From assembly GCA_027484145.1 (NCBI GenBank), contig JAIXUH010000001.1, positions 1-41,534 of the forward strand: DNA of 41,534 nt, read 5' to 3'. A model generated the notes under the pieces. That model was not told the DNA's origin and did not search any database. It saw nothing but the letters and a program-made list of their open reading frames with translations. Position 1 is the first letter of the stretch. Every line of letters starts with the position of its first letter. Below, piece by piece: positions 7,617 through 41,534 of this stretch. The DNA comes from Rhodobacter sp. Lineage in GTDB: Bacteria; Pseudomonadota; Alphaproteobacteria; Rhodobacterales; Rhodobacteraceae. Made by a program: the position numbers and the translations under genes.

Positions 7617-7938
7617 GGGGGGCAGGGCGCATGTGACCTGCGCTATCAGGGGACGCAGGCAACGCCAGAAGGCCGATCCAAGGGTGCCCTTTTTGGGGCT
7701 GCCGGGTGCGCAAGTGTCCTTATGGTGTGCCACCCGCTGCGACGGTCGCCCAAAAGTATTCTGCGTTGACGGTCGCAAGCGGACAGACTCAACACGAAAG
7801 CTGGCATTCCCTTTCTAATTCAAACGCTTCGGTGTTTTGCGCCAGTTTCGTGCGGCACCTTGTCGAAGAAACCATTGATCCGCGCAGGTGCGAGCCTGAA
7901 AAATGCGCTTGCGACTCTTGGGCGGCATCGCGTGGCAA
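7617..7938. other. Intergenic region between convergent genes
   Basis: About 320 bp between the RTX gene stop and the aldo/keto reductase stop. Short frames on both strands lack ribosome binding sites and recognisable products. No strong terminator with a T-tract was found on either strand. Confidence 0.45.
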
Positions 7939-10026: not shown

Positions 10027-10074
10027 CCTGTGCAAGCGCCCTCGTGTTTTGCGCCAGCCTACATGGGGGATGTC

Positions 10075-19178: not shown

Positions 19179-20392
19179 CCGATCTGGTGCTGACCCGCCT
19201 GCGCCTGCCCGACAGGCCCGGCCTATGGGACATGGCCTTTGCACAGGGGCGTATCAGCGGCATCGCGCCGCAGATCGACGCCGATGCCCCACGCCATGAT
19301 GCGGCGGGTTGTCTGGGTATTGGCGGCTTTGTCGATCCGCATATTCACCTGGACAAGGCGCATATACTGGACCGCTGTGAGATGTCAGAGCCCAGTCTGG
19401 CCGCCGCCGTGCGCGAAACCGCCCGTGCCAAGGCCGGGGCCGATGTGGCAGATGTCTATGCCCGCGCCGCGCGGGTGGCCGAGTCTGCAATTCTGAATGG
19501 CACCAACCTGTTGCGAACCTTTGTTGAGGTTGATCCGCGGGCTGGGATGCGTGGCTTTGACGCCATCATGCAGATCAAGCAAGACTATGCTTGGGCCATC
19601 GACATCCAGATCTGTGCCTTTGCGCAAGAAGGGCTGACGAATGAGCCGCAGACCGAGGCGCTGCTGGTGCAGGCGCTGGAGCAGGGGGCCGATCTGGTGG
19701 GCGGGTGCTCTTACCGTGACCCCGATCCGGAGACGCATATCGACAGGGTCTTTGCATTGGCCAGGCGCTTCGGCACCGATGTCGATTTTCACATCGACTT
19801 CAGCCTTGATCCGGGCATGGCCGATCTTCCGGCGCTGATCGCAGCCACGCAGACCCATGGTTACGGCGGGCGCGTCGTGGCGGGGCATGTGACGAACCTG
19901 TCGGCCATGCCGCCGGAAGAGGTGGCGCGCATCGGGCGTGATCTTGCGGATGCCGGCATTGCCGTGATTGCCTTGCCTGCGACCGACCTGTTCCTGATGG
20001 GGCGTGAGGCGGACCGATTGCCCCCGCGCGGCCTAGCCCCACTGGCAGCACTTCGGTCCTTGGGGGTGCACGTGGCCGTTGGCACCAACAACGTGATGAA
20101 CCCGTTCACGCCCTATGGCGATGCCAATGCGCTGCGGATGGCCAACCTTTATGCCAATGTCGCGCATCTGGCGGCCCCGGATGATCTGGCCGCCTGCTTT
20201 GACATGGTTGGCGACGGGGCGGCCCGTCTGATGGGGCGACATCGCAGCCTTGCGGTGGGTCAACCTGCCGATCTGGTGCTGATCGACGCCCCGGACCAGG
20301 CAACGGCGGTGCGAACCCTCGCGCCGGTCCGGGCGGGGTGGCGGGCCGGGCGGCAAACCTTTGTCAAACCGGCAGGCCAGTTGCTGCGATGA
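19175..20392 (+). CDS. Amidohydrolase-family protein with altered active site
   Basis: A 405-residue partner of the preceding gene; ATG 19175 overlaps the upstream stop by four bases. A longer open frame from 18890 only reads through the upstream gene in another frame. The fold signature is clear: His56 and His58 (DPHIHLDKAH), His206 (DFHIDF) and His238 (AGHVTNLSAM). However, the position of the catalytic Glu is Phe209, and the position of the catalytic Asp is Asn305 (GTNNVMNPFTPYG). Compared with Escherichia coli cytosine deaminase (Glu217, Asp313), both key acids are lost. It may therefore be a regulatory or structural subunit of the first amidohydrolase, or an enzyme with a different chemistry. 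The C-terminal beta-sandwich motif GQPADLVLIDAPD is intact. It is cytoplasmic. Confidence 0.88.
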   Translation: MTDLVLTRLRLPDRPGLWDMAFAQGRISGIAPQIDADAPRHDAAGCLGIGGFVDPHIHLDKAHILDRCEMSEPSLAAAVRETARAKAGADVADVYARAARVAESAILNGTNLLRTFVEVDPRAGMRGFDAIMQIKQDYAWAIDIQICAFAQEGLTNEPQTEALLVQALEQGADLVGGCSYRDPDPETHIDRVFALARRFGTDVDFHIDFSLDPGMADLPALIAATQTHGYGGRVVAGHVTNLSAMPPEEVARIGRDLADAGIAVIALPATDLFLMGREADRLPPRGLAPLAALRSLGVHVAVGTNNVMNPFTPYGDANALRMANLYANVAHLAAPDDLAACFDMVGDGAARLMGRHRSLAVGQPADLVLIDAPDQATAVRTLAPVRAGWRAGRQTFVKPAGQLLR

Positions 20393-20482
20393 CCGATCCT
20401 GTGTTGAAGATTGCCGCGATTTGGGTTGAATACCTGTGACGCAGATCAGGGCATGATGCCCTGCCGCAAAGGACCATCCCGC

Positions 20483-21466
20483 ATGACCGGCACACCAAAC
20501 CCGTTTTTCCAGCCTGTTTCGGCCATTGAACTGCCGCGCTTTGCGGGCGTGCCCAGTTTCATGCGCCTGCCTTACCTGACGCCCGCCGATGCCGAATATG
20601 CCCAAGTGCAAATGGGCCTTGTCGGCATTCCATGGGATGGTGGCACCACCAACCGTCCCGGCCCGCGCCATGGCCCGCGACAATTGCGCGACCTGTCCAC
20701 CATGATCCGCGCCGGAAACCCGGTGACAGGGGTTAACCCCTTTGTCACCGTCAACTGCGCCGATCTGGGGGATGTGTCGCCCAACCCGGTGGACCTGATG
20801 GACAGTATGGCACGCATCACCGCGTTCTACAGCAAACTGAAGGCACGGGGCATTGTGCCGATGACGGCGGGCGGTGACCATTTGTCGACCTTGCCGGTGC
20901 TGCGCGCCCTTGCGGCCGATGAACCCGTCGGCTTTATCCAGTTCGATAGCCATACCGATCTGTTCGACAGCTATTTTGGCGGCAACAAATATACCCATGG
21001 CACGCCGTTCCGCCGCGCCATCGAAGAAGGTCTGATCGACCCCAAGCGTATGGTCCAGATCGGCATTCGCGGCACTGCCTATAACGCAGAGGATGTGGAA
21101 TGGGGCGAGGCGCAGGGCGTGCGGATCATCCGCATCGAAGAGTTCTTTGCGCGCGGCGTTGATGATGTGATGGCCGAGGCGCGCCGCATCGTGGGGGATG
21201 GGCGGACATATTGCTCGTTTGACATCGATTTCGTCGATCCGGCCTATGCGCCGGGCACGGGCACGCCCGAGGTTGGCGGGCCGACCAGTTTTCAGGCGCA
21301 GCAAGTGGTGCGGGCGCTGATGGGGCTGAATCTGATCGGGGCCGATCTTGTCGAAGTCTCCCCCCCGTTTGACCAGACCGGCAATACCGCATGGCTGGGG
21401 GTGTCGCTGATGTTCGAATTGATGTGCGTTCTGGCAACGGCCATGGCCGCACGTGCGGCAGGTTAG
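20483..21466 (+). CDS. Arginase/agmatinase-family ureohydrolase
   Basis: A 327-residue cytoplasmic binuclear metal enzyme of the ureohydrolase superfamily, which splits guanidino compounds into urea and an amine. All six metal ligands are present: His133 (GGDHL), Asp155, His157 and Asp159 (FDSHTD), and Asp247 and Asp249 (SFDIDFVDP). The N-terminal GIPWDGGTTNRPGPRHGPR segment is of the kind I associate with the agmatinase, guanidinobutyrase and guanidinopropionase branch rather than true arginases. ATG 20483 follows AAAGGA at good spacing; the open frame reaches back to 20411 without support. It lies 90 bp after the second amidohydrolase and 59 bp before the MoxR ATPase, all on the same strand. 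The exact substrate is unknown; agmatine, guanidinobutyrate or guanidine itself are possibilities. No urease genes are in the window. Confidence 0.92.
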   Translation: MTGTPNPFFQPVSAIELPRFAGVPSFMRLPYLTPADAEYAQVQMGLVGIPWDGGTTNRPGPRHGPRQLRDLSTMIRAGNPVTGVNPFVTVNCADLGDVSPNPVDLMDSMARITAFYSKLKARGIVPMTAGGDHLSTLPVLRALAADEPVGFIQFDSHTDLFDSYFGGNKYTHGTPFRRAIEEGLIDPKRMVQIGIRGTAYNAEDVEWGEAQGVRIIRIEEFFARGVDDVMAEARRIVGDGRTYCSFDIDFVDPAYAPGTGTPEVGGPTSFQAQQVVRALMGLNLIGADLVEVSPPFDQTGNTAWLGVSLMFELMCVLATAMAARAAG

Positions 21467-21525
21467 CACGCGCGCCTCTTGCCCTGCGCGGGCTGACCGC
21501 TAGTTGCCTGACGGGGAGGATGGTC

Positions 21526-25952: not shown

Positions 25953-26001
25953 CGTGCAAATGGGTTTGCGACCTGTCGTGATCACGCAAGGGACATCCGC
26001 G

Positions 26002-28767
26002 ATGCGAATGATACTGAACCGCGCCTTTGGAAGCCTGTCTTTCAAGATCATCGGCCTGATGGGCGTCATGGGGTTGACCACGGCCGCCGCCGTTACCCTT
26101 GGGCTTCAGACCTTTCTGAAAACCTCAAGCCATGTGTCGGATCTGATTACGCAAGATGTGCAAGTGCTGGCCAACAGCAACATCGCCATGTCAGAACTGT
26201 CGCACCTGTCGGAAAACGTGGCCAAGGTGCTTGCCGCCGCGACCGACACCGAACTTCAAACAGCCGATGCGCTGATCACGGAAAACTTTATTCAGTTGCG
26301 GACGGATCTGCGCACCGTTCTGACGCCGGACCTCTCGGCGCAACTGGCGCGGATTCAAACCAGCGCCGCTGAAATGGTGGCGGCGCGCGGGCAGGAATTT
26401 GTCTTGCAAGACAGCATTTCCGCCAAGCTGACAGCCATTGACCAGACGGCAAATGACCTGGAGGTTGCGGTCGATGCGGGCAGTGACGCGGCCTATGCCG
26501 ACCTTCTGGTTGGCGGGCAGGCCACCGCCGATGCCGTGGCAAAGACCCTTGAAGGGCTGATTGCGCAAGATGTGGAACGTATTCAGGCGGCCTTGACCAC
26601 ACGGATTGAGGTGAATGCCCTGATCGGCGTGGTCCTGGGGCTGAGTGCCAAGCCTGATGAGGCGCGCATTGCCATTCTGACCGACCTTGCCCGTGCCTCG
26701 GTGAACCGTCTGGCCACGGTTCGCACAACGATCAGCGATCAGCCTGACAGCGCTGAACAGGCACGTGCCCTTGATGACATCTTGACGCGCATGGCCGCGA
26801 TTGTTGATGCGCCACAAACGGCAAATTTTCTGGGCAAAGCCTTGATTGCAGATATGCAAAGGATCGATGCCGCGCTGCTGGTCTGGCAGGACGATCTGCG
26901 CTTTACCCTTGAACTTTCTGCCATTGAGGCGGGCGAACAAAACAAGGCCGCAATCGAAACCCTGTTGGAAAAGCATGTCGAGCCTCTGCGCCAGCTTGCC
27001 CTTCTGGACGCCACCGCCCGCTCGGTTTCGGCAGCGGCCACCGCCGTCGCGCTGACGCGAAACCCTATTGACGCGGAACGCGCAACGGCGGCTTTGTCGG
27101 CCAATATCAGCGAACTGCAGGGGCTGATCCCCGGTGTCCCGGCGGATCTGCGCGAAAAGGCGGAAAGCTTTCTGCAGATGGGCGATGCCCAAACCGGCAT
27201 TGCCGCCGAACAGCTTGCGCTTTTGTCGGCCCGAGCCCGGGCCGAAGCTGTGTCCGGCGAGGTGGTCGATGCCGTTGGCACTTTGGCCGCGACGATGCGC
27301 GGTCTGGCCAAGTCGACCCTGACGTCGGTTGCAGATGGCGGTCGTGACCTGATGGCGCAGGCCGAGGCGTCGATCAACGCCCTGTGGTTGCTAGCCGCCC
27401 TGACGGGTGCCCTGATCGCGGGCGCGCCGGTGGTGGCATGGGTCTTTGTCATTGCGCCGATCCGCCGCGCAACGCGGGCCACTACCGGGCTGGCCGCTGG
27501 CAATCTTGCGGCGGCTGATGGATTGCGGTCCGGCGCCGGCGAGATCGGGGATCTTGGCAAAGCGCTGTTGGTCTTTCGCGATACGTTGCGCGCCAAGATC
27601 ACGCTGGAGGCCGAAGAACAGCGTGCCGCCGAGGCACGGCGAGCCCAGAGTGCCGCCGAAGCGCGCGCCGTTCAGGAGCGTGAGCGCCTAGAAGCGGTAC
27701 GGCTGGCCGAGGCAGAGCGGCATGAGCGCGAACGGGTTGCGGCTGCAGAGGCCGAGCGTCAGCGCCTGCGCCAGATTGCCGATGCCGAACGTCAGGCCCT
27801 GATGGATTTGCAGGATCAGATCGTGGCAACCTTGGCGCAAGCCTTGCGGCGCCTGTCTGAGGGCGACCTGACGGTCGAGATCGTTGATGCCTTTGCCGGT
27901 GGCCATGATAGCCTGCGGGTCGATTTCAACGTGGCGACGCGGGCCTTGCGCGATCTGGTGCAAGATATCCGTCGCATGGCAGAAAACATCGATGGCGAAA
28001 CAGGCGGCATTGCGGACGCTGCCGAAGAATTGTCGCGGCGCACGGAAAGCACGGCCGCGACGCTTGAAGAGTCCGCCGCGGCGCTCAGTGAGTTGACTTC
28101 GCTGGTGAAATCCACGGCGGCCCGGTCGCGTGAGGCGCGGCACGCAGTAGAAAACGCCACAGAAAAGGCAGATCAGGGCCGCGCGGCGGTGCAATCGGCC
28201 AAAGGGGCGATCGATGCGATTGCCCGCTCCTCCAGCCAGATTTCATCGATTGTCGAAATGATCGAGGGAATCGCCTTTCAGACCAACTTGCTGGCATTGA
28301 ATGCGGGGGTTGAGGCTGCCCGGGCCGGTGAGGCGGGGCGCGGGTTTGCAGTGGTCGCCTCGGAAGTCAGGGCCCTGTCTCAACGCACGACCGAGGCTGC
28401 GCGCGATATTTCGGCGCTGATCGCGCAAAGCGCACAAGAGGTGCAGCGCGGGGTGCATGTTGTTGGCGATGTTGACCTGTCGCTGTCCGAGATTGGCGAG
28501 GCGGTTGAGCGCTTGACGCAAACCATCCGGGCGATTTCTGCCGCAAGTGAGGAACAGGCGTCGGGATTAACGGAAATTGACAGCGCGGTCAGCCAGTTGG
28601 ATCAGAACACGCAAAGCAACGCAGCAATTTCGGAGGAGGTGACGGCAAGCGGCCAGACTTTGCGCCAGCAAGTCTCGGCCCTGCGGGATCAACTGATGTT
28701 GTTCCGGGTCGAGGCTGGCCGTCAGGCCCGGTCCGCCGGGCAATGGCAAGAATTGCGGACAGCTTGA
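26002..28767 (+). CDS. Methyl-accepting chemotaxis protein
   Basis: A 921-residue chemoreceptor, much longer than the usual 500-650. ATG 26002 follows AAGGGA at correct distance; the open frame reaches back to 25954. The first membrane segment is about 14-36. A periplasmic region of about 420 helical residues follows, roughly twice the usual size. The second membrane segment is about 460-483. HAMP lies at about 484-535, then an Ala/Glu/Arg-rich helix (about 534-600) and a second HAMP-like segment (RRLSEGDLTVEIVDAF, about 613-663). The signalling domain is at about 665-890. Its tip reads EGIAFQTNLLALNAGVEAAR, with Gly where most receptors have Ala (NAAVEAAR), then GEAGRGFAVVASEVRALSQR, which binds CheA and CheW. 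No pentapeptide tether for CheR is seen. It is paired with the upstream binding protein; no other che genes are in the window. Confidence 0.95.
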   Translation: MRMILNRAFGSLSFKIIGLMGVMGLTTAAAVTLGLQTFLKTSSHVSDLITQDVQVLANSNIAMSELSHLSENVAKVLAAATDTELQTADALITENFIQLRTDLRTVLTPDLSAQLARIQTSAAEMVAARGQEFVLQDSISAKLTAIDQTANDLEVAVDAGSDAAYADLLVGGQATADAVAKTLEGLIAQDVERIQAALTTRIEVNALIGVVLGLSAKPDEARIAILTDLARASVNRLATVRTTISDQPDSAEQARALDDILTRMAAIVDAPQTANFLGKALIADMQRIDAALLVWQDDLRFTLELSAIEAGEQNKAAIETLLEKHVEPLRQLALLDATARSVSAAATAVALTRNPIDAERATAALSANISELQGLIPGVPADLREKAESFLQMGDAQTGIAAEQLALLSARARAEAVSGEVVDAVGTLAATMRGLAKSTLTSVADGGRDLMAQAEASINALWLLAALTGALIAGAPVVAWVFVIAPIRRATRATTGLAAGNLAAADGLRSGAGEIGDLGKALLVFRDTLRAKITLEAEEQRAAEARRAQSAAEARAVQERERLEAVRLAEAERHERERVAAAEAERQRLRQIADAERQALMDLQDQIVATLAQALRRLSEGDLTVEIVDAFAGGHDSLRVDFNVATRALRDLVQDIRRMAENIDGETGGIADAAEELSRRTESTAATLEESAAALSELTSLVKSTAARSREARHAVENATEKADQGRAAVQSAKGAIDAIARSSSQISSIVEMIEGIAFQTNLLALNAGVEAARAGEAGRGFAVVASEVRALSQRTTEAARDISALIAQSAQEVQRGVHVVGDVDLSLSEIGEAVERLTQTIRAISAASEEQASGLTEIDSAVSQLDQNTQSNAAISEEVTASGQTLRQQVSALRDQLMLFRVEAGRQARSAGQWQELRTA

Positions 28768-29515: not shown

Positions 29516-30676
29516 ATGACCGTCGAGCTTACTTCGGATGTCATCGCCAGCATTTTTACTGATGGCAATCAGCAGGATATCGAACTTAGCACATTGCCGG
29601 GCGGCGGCTTCGTCGCGGTCTGGACCTCGAGCGCGCAGAACGGTTCGGGGCTTGGACTGGTGGGCCAAGTTTACAATGCCTTCGGGCAGCGAATCGGCGG
29701 TGAGTTTCAGGTCGAGACCTCGACACTCGGAAATCAGTCCGATCATTCGGTGACAGGCCTGACGGGCGGCGGCTTTGTCGTCAGCTGGCGCAACACAACC
29801 ACCAATGACATCCGCACCCAGATGTTCGACGCCTCTGGCGCACCTGTTGGCACCGAGCGTGTAACGAACACCGAAACCTTTTCCACCCAACAAGGGCCAT
29901 CGGTTGTCGCCTTGCCGGACGGTGGTTTCACCCTGGCGTGGACGTCCTATAACGACGAAACCTTTACGCAGGATATCCGCGCGCAGCGCTTCAATGCCTC
30001 GGGGACGCCGGTCGGCGTCGAGCGGACGCTGAACATTACGACGACGGGCGAGCAGACTGCCGTTGACCTGTCGCCGCTTGGAACCGGCTACGTCGCGGTC
30101 TGGGCATCAACCGGCAATGCGGGCGTGATCCGGGGGCGGTTGCTGAACGCAGACGGAACCTCGGCCGAGGCGGAATTTGCCGTGGGATCGAACACGGCCA
30201 TCGGCGGGTCTGATCCACAGGTTGTCACCCTGACCGGCGGGCGGTTTGTCGTGGTCTGGACGGGCGACACGGGTGATGGCAGTGCCACTGCGATCAACGC
30301 CCGCCTGTTCGAGGCGAACGGTACCCCGGTGGGTAACCAGTTCGTTGTGAACGTGTCGACGCTGAACAACCAGAACCAGCCTTCGGTTGCGGCAACGCCG
30401 GATGGCGGCTTTTTTGTCAGCTATTACTCCGACACGTCAGGGGGCACCTCGACCTTCGATCTGATGGGCCGGCGGTTCGACGCCAATGGCGCACCCGATG
30501 CCGAGGGTGAGATCCAGATTACCGACAGCGTCAGTTTTTCCCCGAACCAGCCCTCTGTGGTCGTGCTGCCGAACGGTTTGATCATTGTCGGGCATGACGT
30601 TTATCAATCGACCACCAATGATGGAAACGTTCTGATCTCGGTGCTGGCACCGTCGGCGGGTGCCGTTGTGCTGCCC
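29516..30676 (+). repeat. Giant protein: seven-repeat block 1
   Basis: Seven repeats recognised by GGGFVAVW, GGGFVVSW, GGFTLAW, GTGYVAVW, GGRFVVVW, GGFFVSYY and NGLIIVGH. This block forms the N-terminus of the protein and follows no linker module. Confidence 0.8.
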
Positions 30677-33600
30677 GTGTCGCCTGTGGTTGATGGCCTG
30701 CGCGACACCCTTAACCTGACCGAGACACAGATCAATGCGGGCGCGGTGTTGCTGGATCTGGGCGTCGCCGTTTCGGATGCGGACAGCGCCAATTTCGGCG
30801 GTGGACGGCTGGTCTTGCAGCGCGTGACGGCGGAAGGCGATTTTGAAGGTGCTGGTCAGCTGTTCAGCGACATTCTGGGCGTTCAGAACCAAGGCATAGG
30901 GGCCGGCCAGATCGGTGTGGCGGGCACCACCGTCAGTTTTGGCAACGTGACCATTGGCACGATCACCAGCAACGGGACGAACGGGGCCGATCTGGTGATT
31001 TCCCTGACGGCGGCCGCAACCTCGGCGGCAGTCGAAGCCCTGATCGAGGCGTTGACCTATCGCAGCAACAGTAACGATCCTGACAGTCAGGTCGAACTGG
31101 CCTTGCTGTTGCAAGACGGGGCGGGCGGGTCGTCGGCGCCACAAACCATCACCATCAACATTACACCCGAAGAAGATGCCCTGTCGCCCTTGGGCGATGA
31201 CGCCGAACTGGTGAACACCACGCAGGTCTCGGGGCAACAGTTTTCGTCGGTGGTGGGGTTGCCGGGCGGCGGCTGGGTTGTGGTCTGGCGGTCCGAACTG
31301 CAGGATGGCGCATCCGGCGGCATCTTCGGACAGCGCTATGACGCCAGCGGCGCGATGGTCGGGCCGGAATTCATTGTCAACTCCGTCACAGCCGGCACGC
31401 AAACCTCCCCGTCGATTGCAGCCATCACGTCGGGCGCGAATGCGGGCGGCTTTGTCGTGGTCTGGGATGGACCCGTCCGCTTTGCCGGCGACAGCGAGGT
31501 TCACGGGCAAATATTTACAGCCACTGGGCAGCCGGTGGGGAGCGAATTCGCCATTGGCAGTGGCGCAAACTTCTTCAGTCAATCCGTGCCGCAGGTCACC
31601 ACCTTGGCCAACGGCGGCTTTGTCGTTGCCTACAGCGTGTTCAACAATACCACGGGCCTGACTTCGGTGCAGGCGCAATTCTACACCGCAGCCGGCGTGG
31701 CCAGCGGTGCCCCCATCATCGTCGACACCAACGTGCAAAGCGGCAACCCTGTGATCGACATCACAGTGCTGTCGAACCAGAATATCGTTTTTGCGTGGGA
31801 TGATTTTTCGGCCCCCACAAACGCGCCTGATGTGCGGTTTGCCATCTATTCGCCCGCGGGCGTGCAGCAGGGCACAACGGGAACCGTTGAGAGCGGTAAC
31901 TTGACCGGCACCCAGAATGACGCCTCGGTGGCGGCGCTGACGGGTGGCGGTTTTGTCATCGTCTGGACTGACGGGTCGGGGGACGCGTCAAGTACGGGCA
32001 TCTTCGGGCAAATGTTCACGGCGGCGGGTGTGCCGACGGCGGGGCGTTTCCTTGTCAATGAAACCACAGGCGGCACGCAGACCGAACCTTCCGTTGTCGC
32101 ACTGGCCGATGGTGGATTCATTGTTGCGTGGGAAGGGCAGGGCCCGACCGGCGCATACGGGATTCTGATCCAGTCTTATGCCGCTGACGGCAGCCGCGTG
32201 GATGGTGAGACGCAGTTCATGCTGGTGCCGTCAGGTTCGGTGCAGGACGTCAGTCTGGCGCGTCTTGCCAATGGCGATGTGATCGTGACCGCAACCGTCA
32301 ATTCCACTGCATTTGACTCGGACGGCGCGGGTATTGTTCAACGCATTGTCGGCACGTCCAGCAATTATGCTTTGCCGGAAAACGAACCCGTCATTTCGGG
32401 GTTCTCCTCGACCCGCAGCTTGACCGAGGCTGAACTGAACGCGGGCGCGGTGCTTTTGGATGCAGATGGCCGTGTGTCGGTCAGCGATCTGGATTCGGCC
32501 AATTTCGCGGGCGGTCGGCTGGAATTGACGCGGGTGATCGCTCCCGACGCGTCGAACCTGTTTGCTGCGCCCGATGGCACCACGCAGGATATCTATGGCA
32601 TTCGCAACCAAGGCGTTGCGGCAGGGCAGGTCGGTGTGTCCGGGGCCAACGTGACCTTCGGCGGCACGGTCATCGGCACCTTTGCGACCGATGCCGCTGG
32701 TCTGGTGGTGACCTTCAACGCCTCGGCCACATCGGCCGCGGTCGAGGCGGTTTTGGGCAACCTGACCTATTTCAACCTGTCCGATGATCCGCGCGCCACG
32801 CGCGATGTCCGCCTGACGCTGACCGATGGCGACGGCGGGCAATCTGCCCCGCAACTGGTGACAATCACCATCGCCCCCGAGGCCGAGATTCCGGTCTTTG
32901 CCACCGATGAGCGGCTGGTGAACACGGCGACCGAGAGCTCACAAAGCCTGGCCATCGTTTCGGCACTGACAACGGGCGGATATGTCGTTGTCTGGACGTC
33001 ATCCGATCAGGATGCCGCATCCACCAACGGCATTTATGCACAGCGCTATGGAGCCGATGGCCTGCGCGTGGGCGAGGAGTTCCGCGTCAACGCAACAACG
33101 GCAGGCACCCAGAGGGCCCTTGATGCGGTTGGGCTGCCGGGCGGCGGCTTTGTCGTCGTGTTCAGTGCCCCCCCCAACGGGCTGTCTGAAACCTTGCGCG
33201 GACAGATCTTCGATGCCTCGGGCAATCCGTCCGGGGCGGAATTCGTGATCGAAGGGCTTGACAGCTTCAGTGGGGTCAGGGCGCAGGTCATCGCCTTGTC
33301 TGGCGGTGGTTTCGGGGTCGTTTACAACGCCGTATCGCAGGCAACGTTTACAGCTGATGTGTTTTATCAGGCCTTTACGTCCGCAGGCGTACGCGTCGGG
33401 GCCGAGGTGACGGTGTCAACCGACCTTGGCTTTTCCAACGATCCTCCGCAGGTGGCGCAACTGTCAAACGGCAATATCGTGGTTGCCTGGACAAGGTTTG
33501 ACAATGCTGGTGCCGATTTCGGGGTTGCTGCGCAGATCTTGAACGCTGCGGGCGGTCTGGTTGGCGGGCCGATTGCCGTCAATTCGGTCTTTGTCGGTTC

Positions 33601-36600
33601 GCAAAACGAACCTTCCATCGCGGCACTGTCCACGGGTGGCTTTGTCATCGCATGGCGCGACGATTCCGGCACAGACGGAAGCAGTTCAGGGGTGTTTGCG
33701 CAGCGGTTCGATGCGGCGGGCAACCGCGTGGGTGGCGAATTCCTCGTCAACGAAATGACGTCAACCCAGCAATTTGACCCCGAGGTCATTGCGCTGCCGG
33801 GTGGTGGCTTTGCCATAGCCTATTCGGACAACTCGGGCGCTGACGGCAACGGCGGCGGTGTGTTCATCCAGTTCTATGCCGCTGATGGCAGCCGGATCGA
33901 CAACCCGGTTTCCGTCAGAACATCCGGCGACGGCGGACAGTCTGAAGGCGCGCTGACGCTGCTGACCAGTGGCGCGATCATTGCCGCGTGGCAAGAAGCA
34001 TCAGCGACGGGCGACTTTTCCGTAGACATTCTGCACCGGATTCTTGGCACGCCCGCAACCTTTGCCGGAACGGCCCTAAACCCGGTCATCACTGACCTTG
34101 ATGATGTGACGGTGCCGCAGGCTTCCGCAGCGACGGCCCGTGTGATTGATGATGCGGTGTCGGTCCTTGACCCTGATTCCGCGAATTTCGACGGCGGCAG
34201 CCTGAACTTGGTCTGGTTGAACCACCGCACGACGGCCAACGATCAGCTTGGCTTTGCCGCTGGTGGCCGCGTCAGCGTGGTCGGCAATGCAGTGTCGGTG
34301 GATGGCATCCAGATCGGCACGATCGATGCCGTTCTGAACGGCGTGAACGGTGTCGGTCTGCGCATTGCGTTTGATGTGGATGCCACGCCCGCCCGCGTGT
34401 CTTTGCTGCTGGAGGCGCTAACCTATGCCAACACGGCGGCCTCTCCGGCGACTGGCGTGCGCGAACTGGGGTTCACCCTGACCGATGGCGACGGCGGCGT
34501 GTCTGATCCGGTCAGCGTGTCCATCAACATCGGCACACCTGCCACAGTGACCATCGCCCTGACCGACCTTGCCACGGACCTGGTGGTTGCCGAAGCCGCA
34601 GCACAATCGACGGACGGCGTCGCCTTGGACACAGCGGTCGATTTTGACTATTCCGGTGCGGCGGGTCTTTCGGGGGGGGCTGTCGAGGTCAGCTATGCGG
34701 ACGCCTCGGTGTCGCGCGAGTCGAGTGCGTTTGAAACCCTGCGGGTGGCCAGCATTGGCACCGGTGTGGGGCAGATCTCGGTCGCGGGCAACGTGATCAG
34801 CTTTCAGGGCGTTGCCTTTGCCACGATCGATGCGGTTCAGAACGGCCTTGCCGGTGGCACCTTGCGGCTGCTGTTGGGGGCAGGGGCTACTGCACCGGCG
34901 GTCGAGGCGCTGATCGAGGCGCTGCGCTATCGCAACACATCTGACGGCGTGCTTGAGGACCGGGATATCCGGATCAGGGTGACCGACGCCGGTTCCGGCA
35001 CCACGGGGTTCCAGACGATCTCTATCGTCAACACGCCCGAGGATGACGGCGGTCTGCAACCCGAAGGCGGCGAGACGCAGGTCAACACCTTTACCAACAG
35101 CATCCAGGAAGAAGCCGAAGTCTTTGCTCTTTCCTCTGGCGGCTTTGTGGCGGTCTGGCAGTCGTTTAATCAGGATTCCCCCAACACCTATGGTGTGTTT
35201 GTCCAGCGATTTGGCGCAGATGGCAGCCCGATCGGGCCGGAAGTCCGCGTTGGCACCTCGGGCATCGGCAACCAGACCGAGCCTGCGGGCATAGGTCTGG
35301 CAACCGGCGGCTATGTGGTGACATGGACCGACGACACGGCCGATGACTCGGGGTCGGGCGTGCGGGCACAGATCTTTGCAGCCGATGGCACGCCGGGGAC
35401 AATCTTTACGGTCAACGCGCAAACCTCGTCCACCCAGTCCGCGCCGACCATTGTGCAACTTGGCAACGGGAACCTGTTGTTCGCGTGGGAGGCGGTGACC
35501 TCTGCCGGATCTGGCGATGGCAATGGGACCGGTGTTACCGGGCGGATCTTTACGTCAGCGGGCGCGCTGGTGACGGGTGATTTCGTTCTGAATCCCACCA
35601 CGCTGAACGCCCAGTCCGACGTTGAAGTTGCCCTGAACGGGGCCAACGGCTTTGTCGTTGTCTATCGCAGCGAAGGCACCGATGGCTCGTCTGGCGGCAT
35701 CTACTTTCAGCGCTATGATGGGGCGGGCGCGCGCGTTGGCGTCGAGGTGCGGGCCAACACCACCACCTCGGGCAACCAGAACGACCCGGCCATCGCGCGC
35801 TTGGCGGACGGCGGCTTTGTCATCACCTGGACGGATGACACCGTGGGTGACGGGGCGGGGCAAGCCATCTATCTGCAGCGGTTCACGGCTGCCGGGGCGC
35901 CGGTGGGCGGGCAGGTCATCGTCAACACGCTGCCCTCTTCGCAGCAGTTCCAGTCAGACATCACCGAATTGCCCGATGGTGGCTGGCTGGTCAGCTGGTC
36001 AGACAGCAGCGGCATTCTGGGCAGCAGTTTTGACATCTATGCGCAGCAGTTTGCGGCCGATGGCAGCCGCGTTGACGGCATGTTCCGCATCAACGAACAG
36101 ACCGAAACGTCGCAAAGCAACAGCAGCCTTGTGACCTTGTCGGATGGCCGCGTGGCTGCGGTCTGGATTTCGGAAACCAGCGGCGCTGCCGGTGACGGGT
36201 CGAGCCGCGGTGTGTTCCTGCGCGTCTTGGGCGACGGTGTGTCTGCTGCCGGGGCAGGGGCGCCCACGATCGAAGGCGTGCCCGAAACGGTGACCCTGAC
36301 CGAAGCTCAGGTAAACGCGGGCTTTGTGGCGCTTTTCCCCAACCGTCTGACCGTTTCGGACGCTGACAGTGCCAATTTCCTGAATGGTCGGCTTGAGATC
36401 ACCCGCGCGATCAATTCCGACAGTGGCGTGCAGTTTTCGGCCCCCGACAATGGCGCGCAGGATGATCTGACCTTTGCCTCGGCGCGCGTGTCGCTTGTCG
36501 GTGGCACCGTCAGTGTTGATGGCGTGGCAATTGGCGTGCTTGTGGCGAATGGTCAGGATGGCGTGCCGCTGTCGGTGACGTTCAACGCCAACGCAACAGC

Positions 36601-39600
36601 GGCGCGGATCGAGGCGCTGCTGGATGCGCTGTCCTATCGCAACATCAGTAATGACCCCGAAGCCACGCGCGACCTGCGCATCGTGCTGACGGATGGCGAT
36701 GGCGGCTTTGTGCAGTCGGAACTGATTTCCTTGGTGATCACGCCACAGGCGGAATCTTTCGTGCCAATGGGGGGCGATCAGCGGGTCAATTCCGAAACGG
36801 CCAGCTCACAATCTGATCCGGCTGTGGCGGTCCTGTCGGGTGGCGGGCATGTCGTTGTCTGGTCATCCGCCGCGCAAGATTTTGATCTTGATAGCGGCTC
36901 TGGCGTTTTCGGCCAGCTTTATGATGCCTTGGGCCAACCGGTCGGGCCGGAATTCCTGATCAACACCACTGTTCAGGGCTTTCAATCCGCACCGTCCGTT
37001 GTGGCGCTTAGCACGGGCGGGTTTGTCGTTGCGTGGGAAGGCACGGGCCCCGACGATACCAACGGTGTCTTTGCCCAGATCTTCACATCCGCTGGCGCGG
37101 CCGTCGGCGGGCAGATGCGGCTGAACGAATCCGCCTCGGGCACGGAAACCTCCGTGTCGCTGGCCAGCGACGCCTTTGGCCGCTTTGCTGCTGTCTGGAC
37201 CGATTCCAACGGCGATGCCAGCAGCACCGGCATCCGGGTCCGCGTGTTTGACCAGAACGGCGCCGCAGTGACGGTCGAACTTGCCGGAAACACCTTTACC
37301 ACCAGCACCCAGCAATCCCCGGCCGTGGCAGCCTTGGCTGGCGGGGGCTGGGTCGTCACATGGGAAAGCTTTGGCCAGGATACGACGAACACCTATGGCG
37401 TTTACGGCCAAAGATTCTCGGCCACCGGCGCACTGGTGGGCACCGAATTTGCCGTCAATACCTCGGTCCTGAGCAACCAGACCAATGCGTCTGTCGCGGG
37501 TCTGGCTGGCGGCGGTTTTGTGGTGGTCTGGACAGATTCAAACGGCAACGACGGGTCCGGCACGGGGATTTATGGTCAGCGCTATGATGCGGCTGGCAAC
37601 CGGGCGGGCGGTGAATTCCTTGTCAACGAAGTCGTCGTGTCCAGTCAGGATAATGCGCAGGTCGTGGCCCTGCCATCCGGCGGCTTCATGGTGGTGTTTC
37701 AGGATTCGTCAGGCTTTGACGGGTCGGGTCAGGGGGTTCTTGGCCAAAGGTATGCCGCCGATGGCAGCCGCATTGACGGGCTGATCAGTCTGGCCGAAGT
37801 GACGACAGGCACGCAAGGCAGCCCGGCCATTGCTGCAACGGTTGATGGTTTTGTGGCGGCGTGGACATCCAGCGACAACGCCTCGCTTGGGGTGTTCCAG
37901 CGGCTGTTTGAATCCCTGCCCGCGACCGATCTGTCGGGCCTGCCTGATCTGGACGCGATCAACGCCACGCTGACGGTGGCGGAAAACACGGTGAACGCGG
38001 CTCCGGTGCGCATTGATGTGAATGCGGCCGCCGTTGTGGTTGACCTCGACGGGTCGGGCTGGGGCGGCGGGTTCATCCGCGTTGATGTGCGCCAGACCAA
38101 TTCATCATCCCTGACGGGTTTCCTGAGCGAAGATGGCGCGGCGCAAGATCAGATTGGTCTGCTTCAGGCGTCCGGCATCACCATTTCCGGCAGCAACGTC
38201 ATCTTCAACGGGCTGACCGTGGCCACCATCACGCAACCCGGCACCGGGGGGCAGCCGTTTGTCTTGTCGCTGACCGCAAATGCGACGACGGCCATCGTCG
38301 AGCTTTTGGTCGAGAACCTGTCGTACCGCAACATCTCGGATGATCCTGCGGCCACCCGCATTCTGCAGATTCAGGTGGGCGACGCCGAGGGAGAGCGGTC
38401 AGACCCGGCCTTTGTCACCGTCACGGTGACTCCCGAAGCGGATGGCGCCAGCCGCGAGTTCGGGGAACGGCAGGCCAATACCTTTGAGACCGGCGCACAG
38501 AACGGCGCCGACGTGGCCGCAATCACCGGCGGCTTTGTCATGGTGTGGGAAAGCTTTGGCCAGGATGCAGTCAGCAGCACCGGCGTCTACGGGCAGCGCT
38601 TTGACCTTGACGGCAACCCGGTCGGGACCGAATTCCGCATCAACAGCACCACGGCGGGCGAGCAGACCGACCCAAATGTGATCGGGTTGCAAGGAGGCGG
38701 CTTTGCGGTCGTCTGGACGGGTATTGACGCCAGTGGCCAAGGGATTTTCCTGCAGCGCTATGATGCGGCAGGGGCACCCGTCGGCACAGAAACACCGGTC
38801 AATTCCTTTACCGTCAGCACGCAATATGCGGCCGAAGTCACCCGCCTGACCGATGGCAACATTCTGGTGACGTGGACCGGATTTGCCAGCGCCATTCCGG
38901 GTGGCAGCGGCGGCGATATCTATGGCCGGGTCTTCTCGGGGACGACCGGCACACCGCTGACGCCCGAATTCCGCGCCAACTTGTCCGTCATCAGCACGCA
39001 GGATCGGGCCTCAGTCACTGCCCTTGCCGGGGGTGGGTTTTTCATCGGCTGGGATACGGACGCGGTCGCGGGCAGTGGCGGCGACGGCAGCGGCCAATCC
39101 GTGGTGGGCCGGGTGTTCACCCCCGGCGCAGGCGGAACCTACACGGGCGGCGCAGCCGAGGTGCGGCTGAACGTGTCGACCCTGAACGCACAGGACACGC
39201 TGGCCCTGACCACGCTGACGGGCGGAAACATGGTGGCGGTCTGGGAAAGCTCGGGCACCGACGGCTCTGCCGAAGGTGTTTATGCCCGGATCTTCGATGC
39301 CACCGGCCTCGCTGTCAGCCTTGAATTCCGCGTCAACGATTTCCGCAGTTCGTCCCAATATCAACCGGCTGTTGCAGCGCTGGAAAATGGCGGCTTTGTC
39401 GTCGTCTTTACCGACGATTCCGGTCAGGACGGGTCGGGCCTTGGGGTCTTTGCGCAGCAGTTCGATGCGGCGGGCAACCGGATCGATGGCCCGATCGAGG
39501 TGAACACCCAAGATGCAAGCTCGCAGTTTGCCCCCACGGTGGCCGCGCTTCCGGGCGGCGGCTTTGTGGTGGGCTGGACCTCGAACACCTCGGGTACGGC

Positions 39601-41534
39601 GGGGGATGGCAGCGGCACGGGCGTGTTCTACCAGATCTTCGGCAACGAACCGCCCGTGGTGCAGAACGTGGTGGCCAACGCGGTCGAAGACACGACATTT
39701 GTGTTCTCGTCGGCGCTGTTTGCGGCCGGATTCACCGATGCCGAAGGCCAGCCGCTGGCCGCGATCCGCATCGATGTGCTCCCGACCGTAGGCCAGTTGT
39801 TCCTCAACGGCCTTCTCGCGACACCCGGTGCCGTGGTGACGGTCGCGCAACTGAATGCGGGTGCGCTGACCTATCAGCCCGGACCAAACGCAAACGGTCT
39901 GGATACCTTTGGCTGGTCGGGCTCTGACGGATCGTCCTTCAGCCCGGCGCAGGCACTGACCAACATCAACGTGGCCCCGGTCAATGACCCGCTGTCGTTT
40001 GAGGCGGGCGCAAACACCGTCATCTCCGAAGGGGCAAGCCTGTCGCGCAACCTGACGATTGTGGATCCGGATGCCGACACATGGACCATCACCATCAACT
40101 ACGGCGAAGGGGCGGGGCCGCAGGTCTTCAACCAGACCACCCGCACCATCAACCTGTCGAACCTGTACGAGGCCGAGGGCGTTTATACCGTCACCGTCAG
40201 CGTCAATGACAACAACGGCTCGTCCACAACGGATACGTTCACCGTCACCGTGAACAACGCGCCACCACAACCGCGCAACGATTTCTTCTCGATCAGCGAA
40301 GACACGGCCTTGACCGGCAATATCTTTGCCAGCAACGGCACCGGCGCCGATTTCGATCCGGGTAGCGACGCCTTTACCCTGACGGCCATCAACGGTGTGA
40401 TTTACGTGCCCGGCAACCCCTTGGTTCTTCCATCGGGGGCGACCGTGTTGATCGGTGCGAATGGCGCGCTGAACTATGATCCGACCACCTCGGCCGCGCT
40501 GCAATCGCTTGCCTCGGGCGAAAACCAGACCGAGACCTTTACCTATACCATCACCGATAATGGCGGGCTGTCCAATACGGCCACGGTCAGCATCAATGTC
40601 ACTGGTGCTGATGACAACGTGGTGGCCCGCAACGACAGCTTTACCGTGTCCGAAGATGCCACACTGGCCGGATCGGTCTTTGCCAACAACGGGTTGGGCA
40701 TCGATTTTGATCCTGAAGGCGATAGCCTCAGCGTGGCGTCGGTCAATGGAAACGTGGCTTTCGTCGGCGCGCCGATCAACCTTTCCGGCGGGGGCACCCT
40801 GACGGTCGGTGCCGATGGTACGCTTTCGTTCAACACCAACGGCGCGTATCAGCATCTTGGGGTTGGCGAGACACAGGTGCTGACCTTCACCTACGTCGTG
40901 CGCGAAAGCGGTGCCAACCTGACCAGCAGCGCCACGGGCACCATCACGGTCACCGGCGCGAATGATCTGCCGGTGGCACAAGATGACAACCGCAGCACAG
41001 CCTTCAACACGGCCCTGACCGGCATCAACGTGCTGGCCAACGACTTTGATGTCGATGGCGATACCCTGACCGTCACCGCCTTTACCCAAGGGGCCAACGG
41101 TACAGTGGCGGCCACGGCCAATGGCGTGTTTACCTATACGCCGAATGCCGGGTTCTCGGGCACCGACACCTTTACCTACACCGTCAATGACGGGTTTGGC
41201 GGCACCGATGTTGCGACCGTGGCCGTCTCGGTCGCGCCGCCCTCGAACCTGCCGCCGGTGGCAACGGATGACACTGCAACCACCACCGAAGACAATGCCG
41301 TGATCATTCTGGTGCGCGGCAATGATTCCGATCCCAACGGCCACCCCTTGAGCGTGGTCGCCATCACCCAAGGCACCAACGGCAGCGTCACGCTGAACGG
41401 GGCCGGCAACCCGGTCTATACGCCGAACCTGAACTTCACCGGGACGGACAGCTTCACCTATACGATCAGCGATGGTCAGGGTGGGTTTGACACGGCGACG
41501 GTGAATGTGACGGTGACGCCGATCAATGATGCGC
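29516..41534 (+). CDS. Giant repeat-rich surface/adhesin-type protein, 3-prime end beyond window
   Basis: A single reading frame runs from ATG 29516 to the last base without a stop, at least 4006 codons. GGGGAAG lies eight bases before the ATG. I translated most of the frame by hand; frame checks at 34022, 38999 and 41459 agree. The architecture, in residues, is: seven-repeat block 1 (1-387), linker module (388-555), block 2 (556-955), linker (956-1123), block 3 (1124-1521), two linkers (1522-1842), block 4 (1843-2248), linker (2249-2413), block 5 (2414-2805), linker (2806-2975), block 6 (2976-3376). About six Ig/cadherin-like domains follow to the window edge (FTYTPNAGFSGTDTFTYTVN type). There is no signal peptide, as for type I secreted adhesins. 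The C-terminal end, where RTX repeats and the export signal would be expected, is not seen. The likely role is adhesion or biofilm matrix; this is inference. Confidence 0.93.
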   Translation, partial: MTVELTSDVIASIFTDGNQQDIELSTLPGGGFVAVWTSSAQNGSGLGLVGQVYNAFGQRIGGEFQVETSTLGNQSDHSVTGLTGGGFVVSWRNTTTNDIRTQMFDASGAPVGTERVTNTETFSTQQGPSVVALPDGGFTLAWTSYNDETFTQDIRAQRFNASGTPVGVERTLNITTTGEQTAVDLSPLGTGYVAVWASTGNAGVIRGRLLNADGTSAEAEFAVGSNTAIGGSDPQVVTLTGGRFVVVWTGDTGDGSATAINARLFEANGTPVGNQFVVNVSTLNNQNQPSVAATPDGGFFVSYYSDTSGGTSTFDLMGRRFDANGAPDAEGEIQITDSVSFSPNQPSVVVLPNGLIIVGHDVYQSTTNDGNVLISVLAPSAGAVVLPVSPVVDGLRDTLNLTETQINAGAVLLDLGVAVSDADSANFGGGRLVLQRVTAEGDFEGAGQLFSDILGVQNQGIGAGQIGVAGTTVSFGNVTIGTITSNGTNGADLVISLTAAATSAAVEALIEALTYRSNSNDPDSQVELALLLQDGAGGSSAPQTITINITPEEDALSPLGDDAELVNTTQVSGQQFSSVVGLPGGGWVVVWRSELQDGASGGIFGQRYDASGAMVGPEFIVNSVTAGTQTSPSIAAITSGANAGGFVVVWDGPVRFAGDSEVHGQIFTATGQPVGSEFAIGSGANFFSQSVPQVTTLANGGFVVAYSVFNNTTGLTSVQAQFYTAAGVASGAPIIVDTNVQSGNPVIDITVLSNQNIVFAWDDFSAPTNAPDVRFAIYSPAGVQQGTTGTVESGNLTGTQNDASVAALTGGGFVIVWTDGSGDASSTGIFGQMFTAAGVPTAGRFLVNETTGGTQTEPSVVALADGGFIVAWEGQGPTGAYGILIQSYAADGSRVDGETQFMLVPSGSVQDVSLARLANGDVIVTATVNSTAFDSDGAGIVQRIVGTSSNYALPENEPVISGFSSTRSLTEAELNAGAVLLDADGRVSVSDLDSANFAGGRLELTRVIAPDASNLFAAPDGTTQDIYGIRNQGVAAGQVGVSGANVTFGGTVIGTFATDAAGLVVTFNASATSAAVEAVLGNLTYFNLSDDPRATRDVRLTLTDGDGGQSAPQLVTITIAPEAEIPVFATDERLVNTATESSQSLAIVSALTTGGYVVVWTSSDQDAASTNGIYAQRYGADGLRVGEEFRVNATTAGTQRALDAVGLPGGGFVVVFSAPPNGLSETLRGQIFDASGNPSGAEFVIEGLDSFSGVRAQVIALSGGGFGVVYNAVSQATFTADVFYQAFTSAGVRVGAEVTVSTDLGFSNDPPQVAQLSNGNIVVAWTRFDNAGADFGVAAQILNAAGGLVGGPIAVNSVFVGSQNEPSIAALSTGGFVIAWRDDSGTDGSSSGVFAQRFDAAGNRVGGEFLVNEMTSTQQFDPEVIALPGGGFAIAYSDNSGADGNGGGVFIQFYAADGSRIDNPVSVRTSGDGGQSEGALTLLTSGAIIAAWQEASATGDFSVDILHRILGTPATFAGTALNPVITDLDDVTVPQASAATARVIDDAVSVLDPDSANFDGGSLNLVWLNHRTTANDQLGFAAGGRVSVVGNAVSVDGIQIGTIDAVLNGVNGVGLRIAFDVDATPARVSLLLEALTYANTAASPATGVRELGFTLTDGDGGVSDPVSVSINIGTPATVTIALTDLATDLVVAEAAAQSTDGVALDTAVDFDYSGAAGLSGGAVEVSYADASVSRESSAFETLRVASIGTGVGQISVAGNVISFQGVAFATIDAVQNGLAGGTLRLLLGAGATAPAVEALIEALRYRNTSDGVLEDRDIRIRVTDAGSGTTGFQTISIVNTPEDDGGLQPEGGETQVNTFTNSIQEEAEVFALSSGGFVAVWQSFNQDSPNTYGVFVQRFGADGSPIGPEVRVGTSGIGNQTEPAGIGLATGGYVVTWTDDTADDSGSGVRAQIFAADGTPGTIFTVNAQTSSTQSAPTIVQLGNGNLLFAWEAVTSAGSGDGNGTGVTGRIFTSAGALVTGDFVLNPTTLNAQSDVEVALNGANGFVVVYRSEGTDGSSGGIYFQRYDGAGARVGVEVRANTTTSGNQNDPAIARLADGGFVITWTDDTVGDGAGQAIYLQRFTAAGAPVGGQVIVNTLPSSQQFQSDITELPDGGWLVSWSDSSGILGSSFDIYAQQFAADGSRVDGMFRINEQTETSQSNSSLVTLSDGRVAAVWISETSGAAGDGSSRGVFLRVLGDGVSAAGAGAPTIEGVPETVTLTEAQVNAGFVALFPNRLTVSDADSANFLNGRLEITRAINSDSGVQFSAPDNGAQDDLTFASARVSLVGGTVSVDGVAIGVLVANGQDGVPLSVTFNANATAARIEALLDALSYRNISNDPEATRDLRIVLTDGDGGFVQSELISLVITPQAESFVPMGGDQRVNSETASSQSDPAVAVLSGGGHVVVWSSAAQDFDLDSGSGVFGQLYDALGQPVGPEFLINTTVQGFQSAPSVVALSTGGFVVAWEGTGPDDTNGVFAQIFTSAGAAVGGQMRLNESASGTETSVSLASDAFGRFAAVWTDSNGDASSTGIRVRVFDQNGAAVTVELAGNTFTTSTQQSPAVAALAGGGWVVTWESFGQDTTNTYGVYGQRFSATGALVGTEFAVNTSVLSNQTNASVAGLAGGGFVVVWTDSNGNDGSGTGIYGQRYDAAGNRAGGEFLVNEVVVSSQDNAQVVALPSGGFMVVFQDSSGFDGSGQGVLGQRYAADGSRIDGLISLAEVTTGTQGSPAIAATVDGFVAAWTSSDNASLGVFQRLFESLPATDLSGLPDLDAINATLTVAENTVNAAPVRIDVNAAAVVVDLDGSGWGGGFIRVDVRQTNSSSLTGFLSEDGAAQDQIGLLQASGITISGSNVIFNGLTVATITQPGTGGQPFVLSLTANATTAIVELLVENLSYRNISDDPAATRILQIQVGDAEGERSDPAFVTVTVTPEADGASREFGERQANTFETGAQNGADVAAITGGFVMVWESFGQDAVSSTGVYGQRFDLDGNPVGTEFRINSTTAGEQTDPNVIGLQGGGFAVVWTGIDASGQGIFLQRYDAAGAPVGTETPVNSFTVSTQYAAEVTRLTDGNILVTWTGFASAIPGGSGGDIYGRVFSGTTGTPLTPEFRANLSVISTQDRASVTALAGGGFFIGWDTDAVAGSGGDGSGQSVVGRVFTPGAGGTYTGGAAEVRLNVSTLNAQDTLALTTLTGGNMVAVWESSGTDGSAEGVYARIFDATGLAVSLEFRVNDFRSSSQYQPAVAALENGGFVVVFTDDSGQDGSGLGVFAQQFDAAGNRIDGPIEVNTQDASSQFAPTVAALPGGGFVVGWTSNTSGTAGDGSGTGVFYQIFGNEPPVVQNVVANAVEDTTFVFSSALFAAGFTDAEGQPLAAIRIDVLPTVGQLFLNGLLATPGAVVTVAQLNAGALTYQPGPNANGLDTFGWSGSDGSSFSPAQALTNINVAPVNDPLSFEAGANTVISEGASLSRNLTIVDPDADTWTITINYGEGAGPQVFNQTTRTINLSNLYEAEGVYTVTVSVNDNNGSSTTDTFTVTVNNAPPQPRNDFFSISEDTALTGNIFASNGTGADFDPGSDAFTLTAINGVIYVPGNPLVLPSGATVLIGANGALNYDPTTSAALQSLASGENQTETFTYTITDNGGLSNTATVSINVTGADDNVVARNDSFTVSEDATLAGSVFANNGLGIDFDPEGDSLSVASVNGNVAFVGAPINLSGGGTLTVGADGTLSFNTNGAYQHLGVGETQVLTFTYVVRESGANLTSSATGTITVTGANDLPVAQDDNRSTAFNTALTGINVLANDFDVDGDTLTVTAFTQGANGTVAATANGVFTYTPNAGFSGTDTFTYTVNDGFGGTDVATVAVSVAPPSNLPPVATDDTATTTEDNAVIILVRGNDSDPNGHPLSVVAITQGTNGSVTLNGAGNPVYTPNLNFTGTDSFTYTISDGQGGFDTATVNVTVTPINDA
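30677..31180 (+). repeat. Giant protein: linker module 1
   Basis: About 168 residues: LNLTETQINAGAVLLD, VSDADSANFGGGRLVL, QNQGIGAGQIGV, GNVTIGTI, then AAVEALIEALTYR and an ITINITPEED end. The pattern resembles cadherin/Calx-beta-like domains of large adhesins. Confidence 0.75.
31181..32382 (+). repeat. Giant protein: seven-repeat block 2
   Basis: Seven repeats: GGGWVVVW, GGFVVVW, GGFVVAY, NQNIVFAW, GGGFVIVW, GGFIVAW, NGDVIVTA. It opens with the half-repeat AELVNTTQVSGQQ and ends with GAGIVQRIVGT. Confidence 0.82.
32383..32889 (+). repeat. Giant protein: linker module 2
   Basis: Same module as linker 1: SLTEAELNAGAVLLD, VSDLDSANFAGGRLEL, RNQGVAAGQVGV, AAVEAVLGNLTYFN, ending TITIAPEAE. Confidence 0.75.
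32890..34078 (+). repeat. Giant protein: seven-repeat block 3
   Basis: Seven repeats: TGGYVVVW, GGGFVVVF, GGGFGVVY, NGNIVVAW, TGGFVIAW, GGGFAIAY, SGAIIAAW. It opens with DERLVNTATESSQ and ends with VDILHRILGT. Confidence 0.82.
34079..34545 (+). repeat. Giant protein: linker module 3a
   Basis: VLDPDSANFDGGSLNL, NAVSVDGIQIGTIDA, RVSLLLEALTYANT, FTLTDGDGGVSDP. It is followed directly by a second linker, the only place where two occur in tandem. Confidence 0.72.
34546..35045 (+). repeat. Giant protein: linker module 3b
   Basis: A more diverged copy: VDFDYSGAAGLSGGAVEV, GTGVGQISVAGNVISFQG, AVEALIEALRYRNTSDG, ending ISIVNTPEDD. Confidence 0.7.
35046..36259 (+). repeat. Giant protein: seven-repeat block 4
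   Basis: Seven repeats: GGFVAVW, GGYVVTW, NGNLLFAW, NGFVVVY, GGFVITW, GGWLVSW, DGRVAAVW. It opens with GETQVNTFTNSIQ and ends with RGVFLRVLGD. Confidence 0.82.
36260..36755 (+). repeat. Giant protein: linker module 4
   Basis: LTEAQVNAGFVALF, VSDADSANFLNGRLEI, GGTVSVDGVAIGVL, ARIEALLDALSYRNISNDP, ending SLVITPQAE. Confidence 0.75.
36756..37930 (+). repeat. Giant protein: seven-repeat block 5
   Basis: Seven repeats: GGGHVVVW, GGFVVAW, GRFAAVW, GGGWVVTW, GGGFVVVW, GGFMVVF, VDGFVAAW. It opens with DQRVNSETASSQ and ends with LGVFQRLFES. Confidence 0.82.
37931..38440 (+). repeat. Giant protein: linker module 5
   Basis: Diverged copy: LTVAENTVNAAPVRID, VVDLDGSGWGGGFIRV, ISGSNVIFNGLTVATI, IVELLVENLSYRNISDDP, ending VTVTVTPEAD. 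Confidence 0.72.
38441..39650 (+). repeat. Giant protein: seven-repeat block 6
   Basis: Seven repeats: GGFVMVW, GGFAVVW, DGNILVTW, GGGFFIGW, GGNMVAVW, GGFVVVF, GGGFVVGW. It opens with ERQANTFETGAQ and ends with GVFYQIFGN. Confidence 0.82.
39651..41534 (+). repeat. Giant protein: run of Ig/cadherin-like domains
   Basis: About six domains of 90-120 residues starting near 39651, 39988, 40269, 40617, 40976 and 41261. Typical elements are SEDTALTGNIFASNGTGADF, NVLANDFDVDGDTL, FTYTPNAGFSGTDTFTYTVN and a VTVTPINDA end. The second resembles a PKD-like domain (YEAEGVYTVTVSVNDNNGS). The run continues past the window. Confidence 0.82.

Follow-up and report, generated by a model that had tools for sequence, protein, structure and literature searches.

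A giant open reading frame (ORF) at the end of a Rhodobacter sp. contig appears, on good predicted and comparative evidence, to encode a chain of six seven-bladed β-propellers. The ORF lies at 29516–41533 on the forward strand of the 41,534-nucleotide stretch analysed here (the window; the whole contig JAIXUH010000001.1, our G000:C18, in a genome of 4.97 Mb and 39 contigs) and encodes at least 4006 amino acids, with no stop codon up to the contig end. Two smaller RTX proteins of the window, named here by their start positions 325 and 15063, each contain a single block of the same repeats. Repeat number, circular permutation, predicted fold, the separateness of two neighbouring rings and the dominance of seven in the family were computed, and we consider the explanation as a whole likely: independently closed rings on a probably type I secreted protein, which may serve as repeated binding heads.

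Repeat number and predicted fold of the blocks

An initial annotation, made from the sequence alone, had counted seven repeats in each of six blocks of the giant and in both RTX proteins. These counts were borne out by a hidden Markov model (HMM) of the repeat, built from the giant's own repeats and run on the three proteins. The giant gave 42 matches in six groups of seven, at residues 7–371, 565–944, 1130–1510, 1849–2238, 2417–2799 and 2983–3376, which define propeller blocks 1 to 6 at 29516–30640, 31181–32365, 32885–34069, 35042–36250, 36746–37930 and 38441–39661 of the window (all features of the three proteins are on the forward strand). Seven repeats were likewise found in the protein at 325 (residues 6–399; block at 325–1530) and in the diverged block of the protein at 15063 (residues 23–388; 15063–16268), where one repeat is weak at an independent E-value (iE) of 0.029; one further weak match in each of these proteins (iE 0.72 and 0.21) fell inside the RTX part and was left uncounted. 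With a second, iterated model (iE below 5), the block at 15063 was read as three plus three repeats with a one-blade gap of 98 residues, which marks the middle blade as weak. Across the 59 ORFs of the survey described below, the iterated model produced 738 matches; reversing the ORFs left 2 and shuffling them left none, so a chance origin of the matches is excluded.

Between the blocks lies a spacer domain of about 165–185 residues, cadherin/Ig-like by eye, whose six copies are homologous by alignment. Single copies follow block 1 (30641–31180), block 2 (32366–32884, with a weak, sub-cut-off LapB_rpt_80 match near its end), block 4 (36251–36745) and block 5 (37931–38440), and a tandem pair separates blocks 3 and 4 (34070–35041), as judged from alignment and repeat spacing. 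Block 6 is followed by PKD, cadherin-like and Big_9/tandem-95 domains (39662–41533; Pfam and NCBIfam) that are truncated by the contig end. The other blocks of the giant are 33–38% identical to block 5, and blade identity is only slightly higher between matched positions (0.356) than between unmatched ones (0.323), which gives no demonstration of recent whole-block copying within the giant.

The blocks had also been described as circularly permuted, and the blade boundaries in the 68 seven-blade clusters of the survey agree with this. In 64 of them the opening blade begins no earlier than model position 3, and in 54 the closing blade stops no later than position 55; of the 408 other blades, by contrast, 339 start at position 1–2 and 385 end at 56–57.

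The AlphaFold2 (AF2) model of block 5 (predicted local distance difference test, pLDDT, 86.8; predicted template modelling score, pTM, 0.90) is a propeller of seven blades with 27 strands and one broken strand, in keeping with the suggestion that one repeat makes one four-stranded blade. In each blade, strand a carries PxVxAL, strand b GGFVVxW, strand c GIYxQRFDA and strand d EFxVNT; conservation is strongest at the G, W, N and Q positions, and in the N-T-x-T-x-x-x-Q loop between strands d and a the N and the Q are each present in 79% of family blades. The strand order is d-(abcd)x6-abc; read this way, the N-terminal strand joins the last three strands of the chain to make up the final blade. 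Solved seven-bladed propellers align with the model over nearly its whole length and match its global fold across the whole block. An open solenoid or a row of Ig domains had been named as outcomes that would speak against a closed ring; the model is neither, and supports a seven-bladed propeller. In a joint model of blocks 5 and 6, the two neighbouring rings are separate.

Together, the strand order and the block boundaries imply that the ring is closed by the N-terminal strand. Each block would then be an independently closed propeller of about 385 residues, which the chain would enter by strand d and leave after strand c, so that the N-terminal strand completes blade 7 and locks the ring; six such rings, separated by the spacers, would precede the cadherin/Big_9 stalk of the giant. 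Two aspects of the models temper this picture. Strand order and near full-length matches, rather than coordinates, are the basis for pairing the N-terminal strand with strand c of blade 7, and the joint model, calculated from an alignment of five rows of which one covers only part, is weak overall (pLDDT 69.9, pTM 0.46), with a low-confidence spacer.

Proposed secretion and role, and relation to CylK

In both small proteins, PF00353 matches above its cut-off identify C-terminal RTX nonapeptide repeats (1540–2601 in the protein at 325; 16269–17777 in that at 15063). These tails point to type I secretion. Further pointers are the giant's Big_9/cadherin stalk, a PrtD-type ATPase gene on another contig of the window's genome, and annotated homologous loci, 3 of 15 of which (two from a single species) carry type I secretion genes within the stretch fetched. 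On the other side, the fetched stretches of the remaining 12 loci hold no secretion genes, and no type I secretion genes were seen by eye among the ORFs of the window. That the giant, whose C-terminus is missing here, is probably secreted, that calcium may lie between its blades and that its rings may bind a ligand are what we infer. Polysaccharide-related genes occur in the fetched stretch of 7 of the 15 loci (in one, L059, only a glycosyltransferase at the edge), and these together with the secretion pointers suggest that the rings may be binding heads, most likely for polysaccharide. Most likely, the giant would be exported by type I secretion and work in a calcium-dependent manner at the surface or in the matrix, with the rings, kept apart by the spacers, as repeated binding heads along it. 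For the binding role taken by itself, we put the chances at about even.

Some known proteins share parts of this build. LDL-receptor-related proteins, which act as multivalent receptors, resemble the giant by analogy only, having several extracellular propellers with small spacers; they differ in being animal proteins with the YWTD motif, six blades per propeller and EGF spacers. RTX adhesins of the LapA and SiiE type are likewise giant proteins with Big_9/cadherin-like repeats, and RTX parts in family relatives and type I secretion genes near some homologues add to the likeness; the main modules here, however, are propellers, whereas SiiE is reported to consist of 53 Ig-like domains (PMC5466336). 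BapP of Pseudoalteromonas tunicata is described as a calcium-dependent adhesin with a predicted N-terminal five-bladed propeller and Calx-beta/Big_9 repeats (PMC12153261); it has this one propeller in place of six seven-bladed ones.

Extender and enzyme roles are the main rivals to binding heads. If the rings served as passive extenders in a very long secreted stalk and the ligand were bound by another part, their alternation with spacers and their position ahead of Big_9/cadherin domains, which are typical of extenders, would be explained. Disc-shaped propellers are uncommon as extenders, however, and the proteins at 325 and 15063 have a single ring with only an RTX tail recognised beside it and hence nothing to extend; we regard this role as unlikely, although a serious contender.

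The enzyme reading arises from the best structural match of the blocks, the C-terminal propeller of CylK (PDB 7ron and 7fh6), a cyanobacterial Friedel-Crafts alkylase, whose fold match lies far above those of all other listed propellers. The catalytic residues of CylK are Arg105, Tyr473 and Asp440. Its propeller has the same shape as the blocks of the giant but shows 13% sequence identity, and no CylK chain was reached by block or single-blade profiles at E-values up to 10. As described in PMC8916777, the active site of CylK is formed between an N-terminal RTX-like domain and the propeller, calcium sits at each blade junction, and the fusion of folds is termed unprecedented. Domain order also differs: CylK has one ring and its RTX-like domain, part of the active site, is N-terminal, whereas the present family forms chains of up to eight blocks (L045, see below), the RTX part stands at the C-terminal end of both small proteins, and the first repeat begins at residue 7 of the giant and residue 6 of the protein at 325, leaving no room for an N-terminal domain of the CylK/BrtB kind. 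The family shares CylK's kind of ring, but neither sequence profiles nor domain order show membership in the CylK family. By analogy with CylK, the conserved N-T-x-T-x-x-x-Q loop between blades is a candidate calcium site. Tentatively, and with chances rather below even, the blocks may represent a large undescribed family of calcium-bridged propellers, chained as duplicable binding rings on secreted giants of Pseudomonadota, of which the CylK alkylases would be cyanobacterial members whose ring top face and RTX partner became an active site.

It is improbable that the rings are themselves enzymes, that is, an extracellular catalytic propeller of the CylK, sialidase or arabinanase type repeated along the chain. 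CylK is an enzyme, and the lower Foldseek matches include many sialidases and arabinanases; yet block 1 of the giant begins at the N-terminus without a CylK-like RTX-like domain before it, and six diverged copies whose blades are most conserved at G, W, N and Q hardly look like one conserved active site. Still less probable are integrin-alpha type FG-GAP/VCBS propellers, whose signatures are FG-GAP and DxDxDG: the repeat consensus lacks both, CylK is the better match by 12 Z units, Pfam lists neither an FG-GAP nor a VCBS-propeller model on the giant or the two RTX proteins at E-values up to 1 (HMMER filters discard most matches above 0.1), and the best NCBIfam VCBS_repeat match on the giant, at residues 3644–3715, is in the C-terminal stalk. 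Bacterial FG-GAP propellers of the integrin type (PMC3192720) resemble the blocks in having seven blades and tandem copies, with a different motif.

Dominance of seven among relatives

For the survey, 17 of 34 matching plasmid records (the omitted 17 are all Pantoea agglomerans) and regions of 31 of 38 other matching genomes were fetched. The 60 resulting loci (L011–L013 and L044–L100) and the window were translated from stop to stop, giving 59 ORFs with at least three strong repeats; five loci had no such ORF and were dropped (L078, L094, L096, L099 and L100). The first, stricter model found 58 clusters of 7 repeats, two of 14, one of 49, 14 of 6, two of 8 and one of 10, as well as 44 fragments of 1 to 4. 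With the iterated model, 108 clusters were obtained, 68 of 7, three of 14, one of 35, one of 49, seven of 6 and three of 8, the other 25 being fragments of 1 to 4 repeats; fragments arranged as three, a gap of about one blade and three again (several, including the protein at 15063) were left out of the counts of seven. Among clusters of more than four repeats, 73 of 83 therefore hold seven or a multiple of seven with the iterated model, and 61 of 78 with the stricter one. A freely varying repeat number, named beforehand as evidence against a closed fold, was not what we saw; the statement that seven holds despite divergence needs correcting, in that three clusters of eight occur.

The best evidence for constancy comes from long arrays, the longest being that of L063 with 49 repeats. 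Blades seven positions apart are 96% identical in L050, 98% in L064 and 74% in L063, compared with 23–44% at other offsets up to 13, and L047 shows copying in units of fourteen blades (91% identity at offset 14). This peak in identity indicates, from sequence comparison, that whole rings rather than single blades were duplicated in these four arrays. Scarcely credible, then, is simple tandem duplication with no ring constraint, seven being an accident of recent copying: the units of L050 and L064 are indeed recent, near-identical copies, but copied units of seven in L050, L063 and L064 and of fourteen in L047 would arise from arbitrary lengths with a chance of about (1/7)^4 by a hand estimate, old and diverged blocks also keep seven, and the strand order of the AF2 model is that of a closed ring.

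Several observations weigh against a strict seven. The 35 repeats of L064 and one cluster of 14 in L047 depend on the permissive iterated model, since two blades per L064 unit (iE 0.06–3) and one L047 blade (iE 0.4) are weak, though regularly spaced; with the stricter model, L064 is split into five clusters of six with gaps of 100 residues, and this cluster of L047 into 10 plus 3. Exceptions also persist with the iterated model. The eight-repeat clusters in L066 (3959–7300), L090 and L057 are regular and are possibly eight-bladed rings of the same family. Clusters of six are found in L044, L060, L061, L067 and, three times, in L062; in one L061 case and one L062 case, a seventh blade seems to have gone unrecognised, since the distance to the following block exceeds that after seven-blade blocks by about 50 residues.

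Spacers between adjacent seven-blade clusters, taken over all loci, fall into a single class of 142–212 residues (23 of 27) and a double class of 334–346 residues (3 of 27), with one of 784. Builds like that of the giant recur in relatives: Rhodovulum sp. P5 (L044) has six clusters, and in the first of them six blades are recognised; Rhodobacteraceae bacterium SC52 (L045) has eight clusters of seven in a frame of 6274 residues that continues into 12 Big_9 stretches and a sub-cut-off RTX match; and L061 has eight clusters, one of them of six. The annotated start of the six-blade first block of Rhodovulum sp. P5 (L044:7669–8850) overlaps a short separate ORF (7703–7969). In Pantoea agglomerans FDAARGOS 1447 (L056:4772–9722), the annotation shows two genes in place of the single long one of strain AB378 (L047), and an open frame reported at 26,117 residues in L080 (G093:C1; match 7408–7884) contains a block of the family.

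Distribution, genomic surroundings and significance

Of 398 genomes sampled across the phylum, 39 were matched by an eight-block profile; they include the window's own genome, in which 13 ORFs carry propeller blocks. By tblastn with block 5, 34 plasmid records were found, 19 of them from Pantoea. A scan of the genome_contigs collection, the one search of genomes that reached beyond the phylum, gave 3 loci only, all of which we take to be from Pseudomonadota; phages gave no match to the block family, and no relatives were confirmed in viral contigs.

The initial annotation knew of no named family that fits the repeat. This held for Pfam and NCBIfam: on the window's blocks every model in both stayed below its cut-off, so that the propeller family lacks a curated model in these two libraries; it did not hold for fold, where CylK is a specific closest relative. 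Homologues are annotated as hypothetical, calcium-binding or Ig-like proteins. Searches of solved-structure sequences with block 5, the 325 block, and the 8-block, 56-block and single-blade profiles gave nothing convincing, the best match (E 0.0078) being an endo-arabinase, which is a propeller enzyme too. Matches of family blocks in Pfam, NCBIfam and PHROGs, judged by score from tables without cut-offs, were scattered over unrelated families with low to moderate scores, as expected of repetitive sequence: the 56 family blocks matched 136 Pfam families, the most shared being CopC (31 blocks). Delta-60 repeat/DUF5122, a propeller-type repeat by name, matched 5 of the 56 blocks weakly in NCBIfam and 3 in Pfam, no more strongly than unrelated families did in the same blocks, and is unlisted for the window proteins at E-values up to 1. 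Among the matches listed in a search of open-access literature (titles and the starts of abstracts), neither the repeat nor a bacterial chain of six such propellers was found.

The giant gene is directly preceded, on its own strand, by a gene (25954–28767) that has features of a methyl-accepting chemotaxis protein by eye. Two more RTX-type proteins are encoded at 6372–7616 and 10030–12987 (by eye and by RTX-type matches), the second with cadherin-like repeats; both are absent from the propeller-block matches of this genome. Two amidohydrolase-like genes and an agmatinase-like gene, identified by eye, lie in a row at 18000–21500 and are apparently unrelated to the propeller proteins. The first 240 bases of the window are a fragment of an RTX C-terminal part like that of the protein at 325, and matches to that part start within 6 bases of an end of contigs C2, C4, C7, C9, C18, C21 and C35 of the same genome (G000), in which the assembly may break at this RTX paralogous family.

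To our knowledge, propellers usually occur singly or in pairs; six to eight rings in one bacterial chain are unusual. The arrays of L050, L063 and L064 are a natural record of ring-size fixation, in which seven-blade rings were copied as units, and the family is common in the sampled genomes yet has no curated model that reaches its cut-off on the window blocks. The CylK match offers a structural template for these blocks and a possible origin for that enzyme. New here is an uncurated propeller family that is arranged in chains, is copied by whole rings in some relatives and is structurally tied to an alkylating enzyme.
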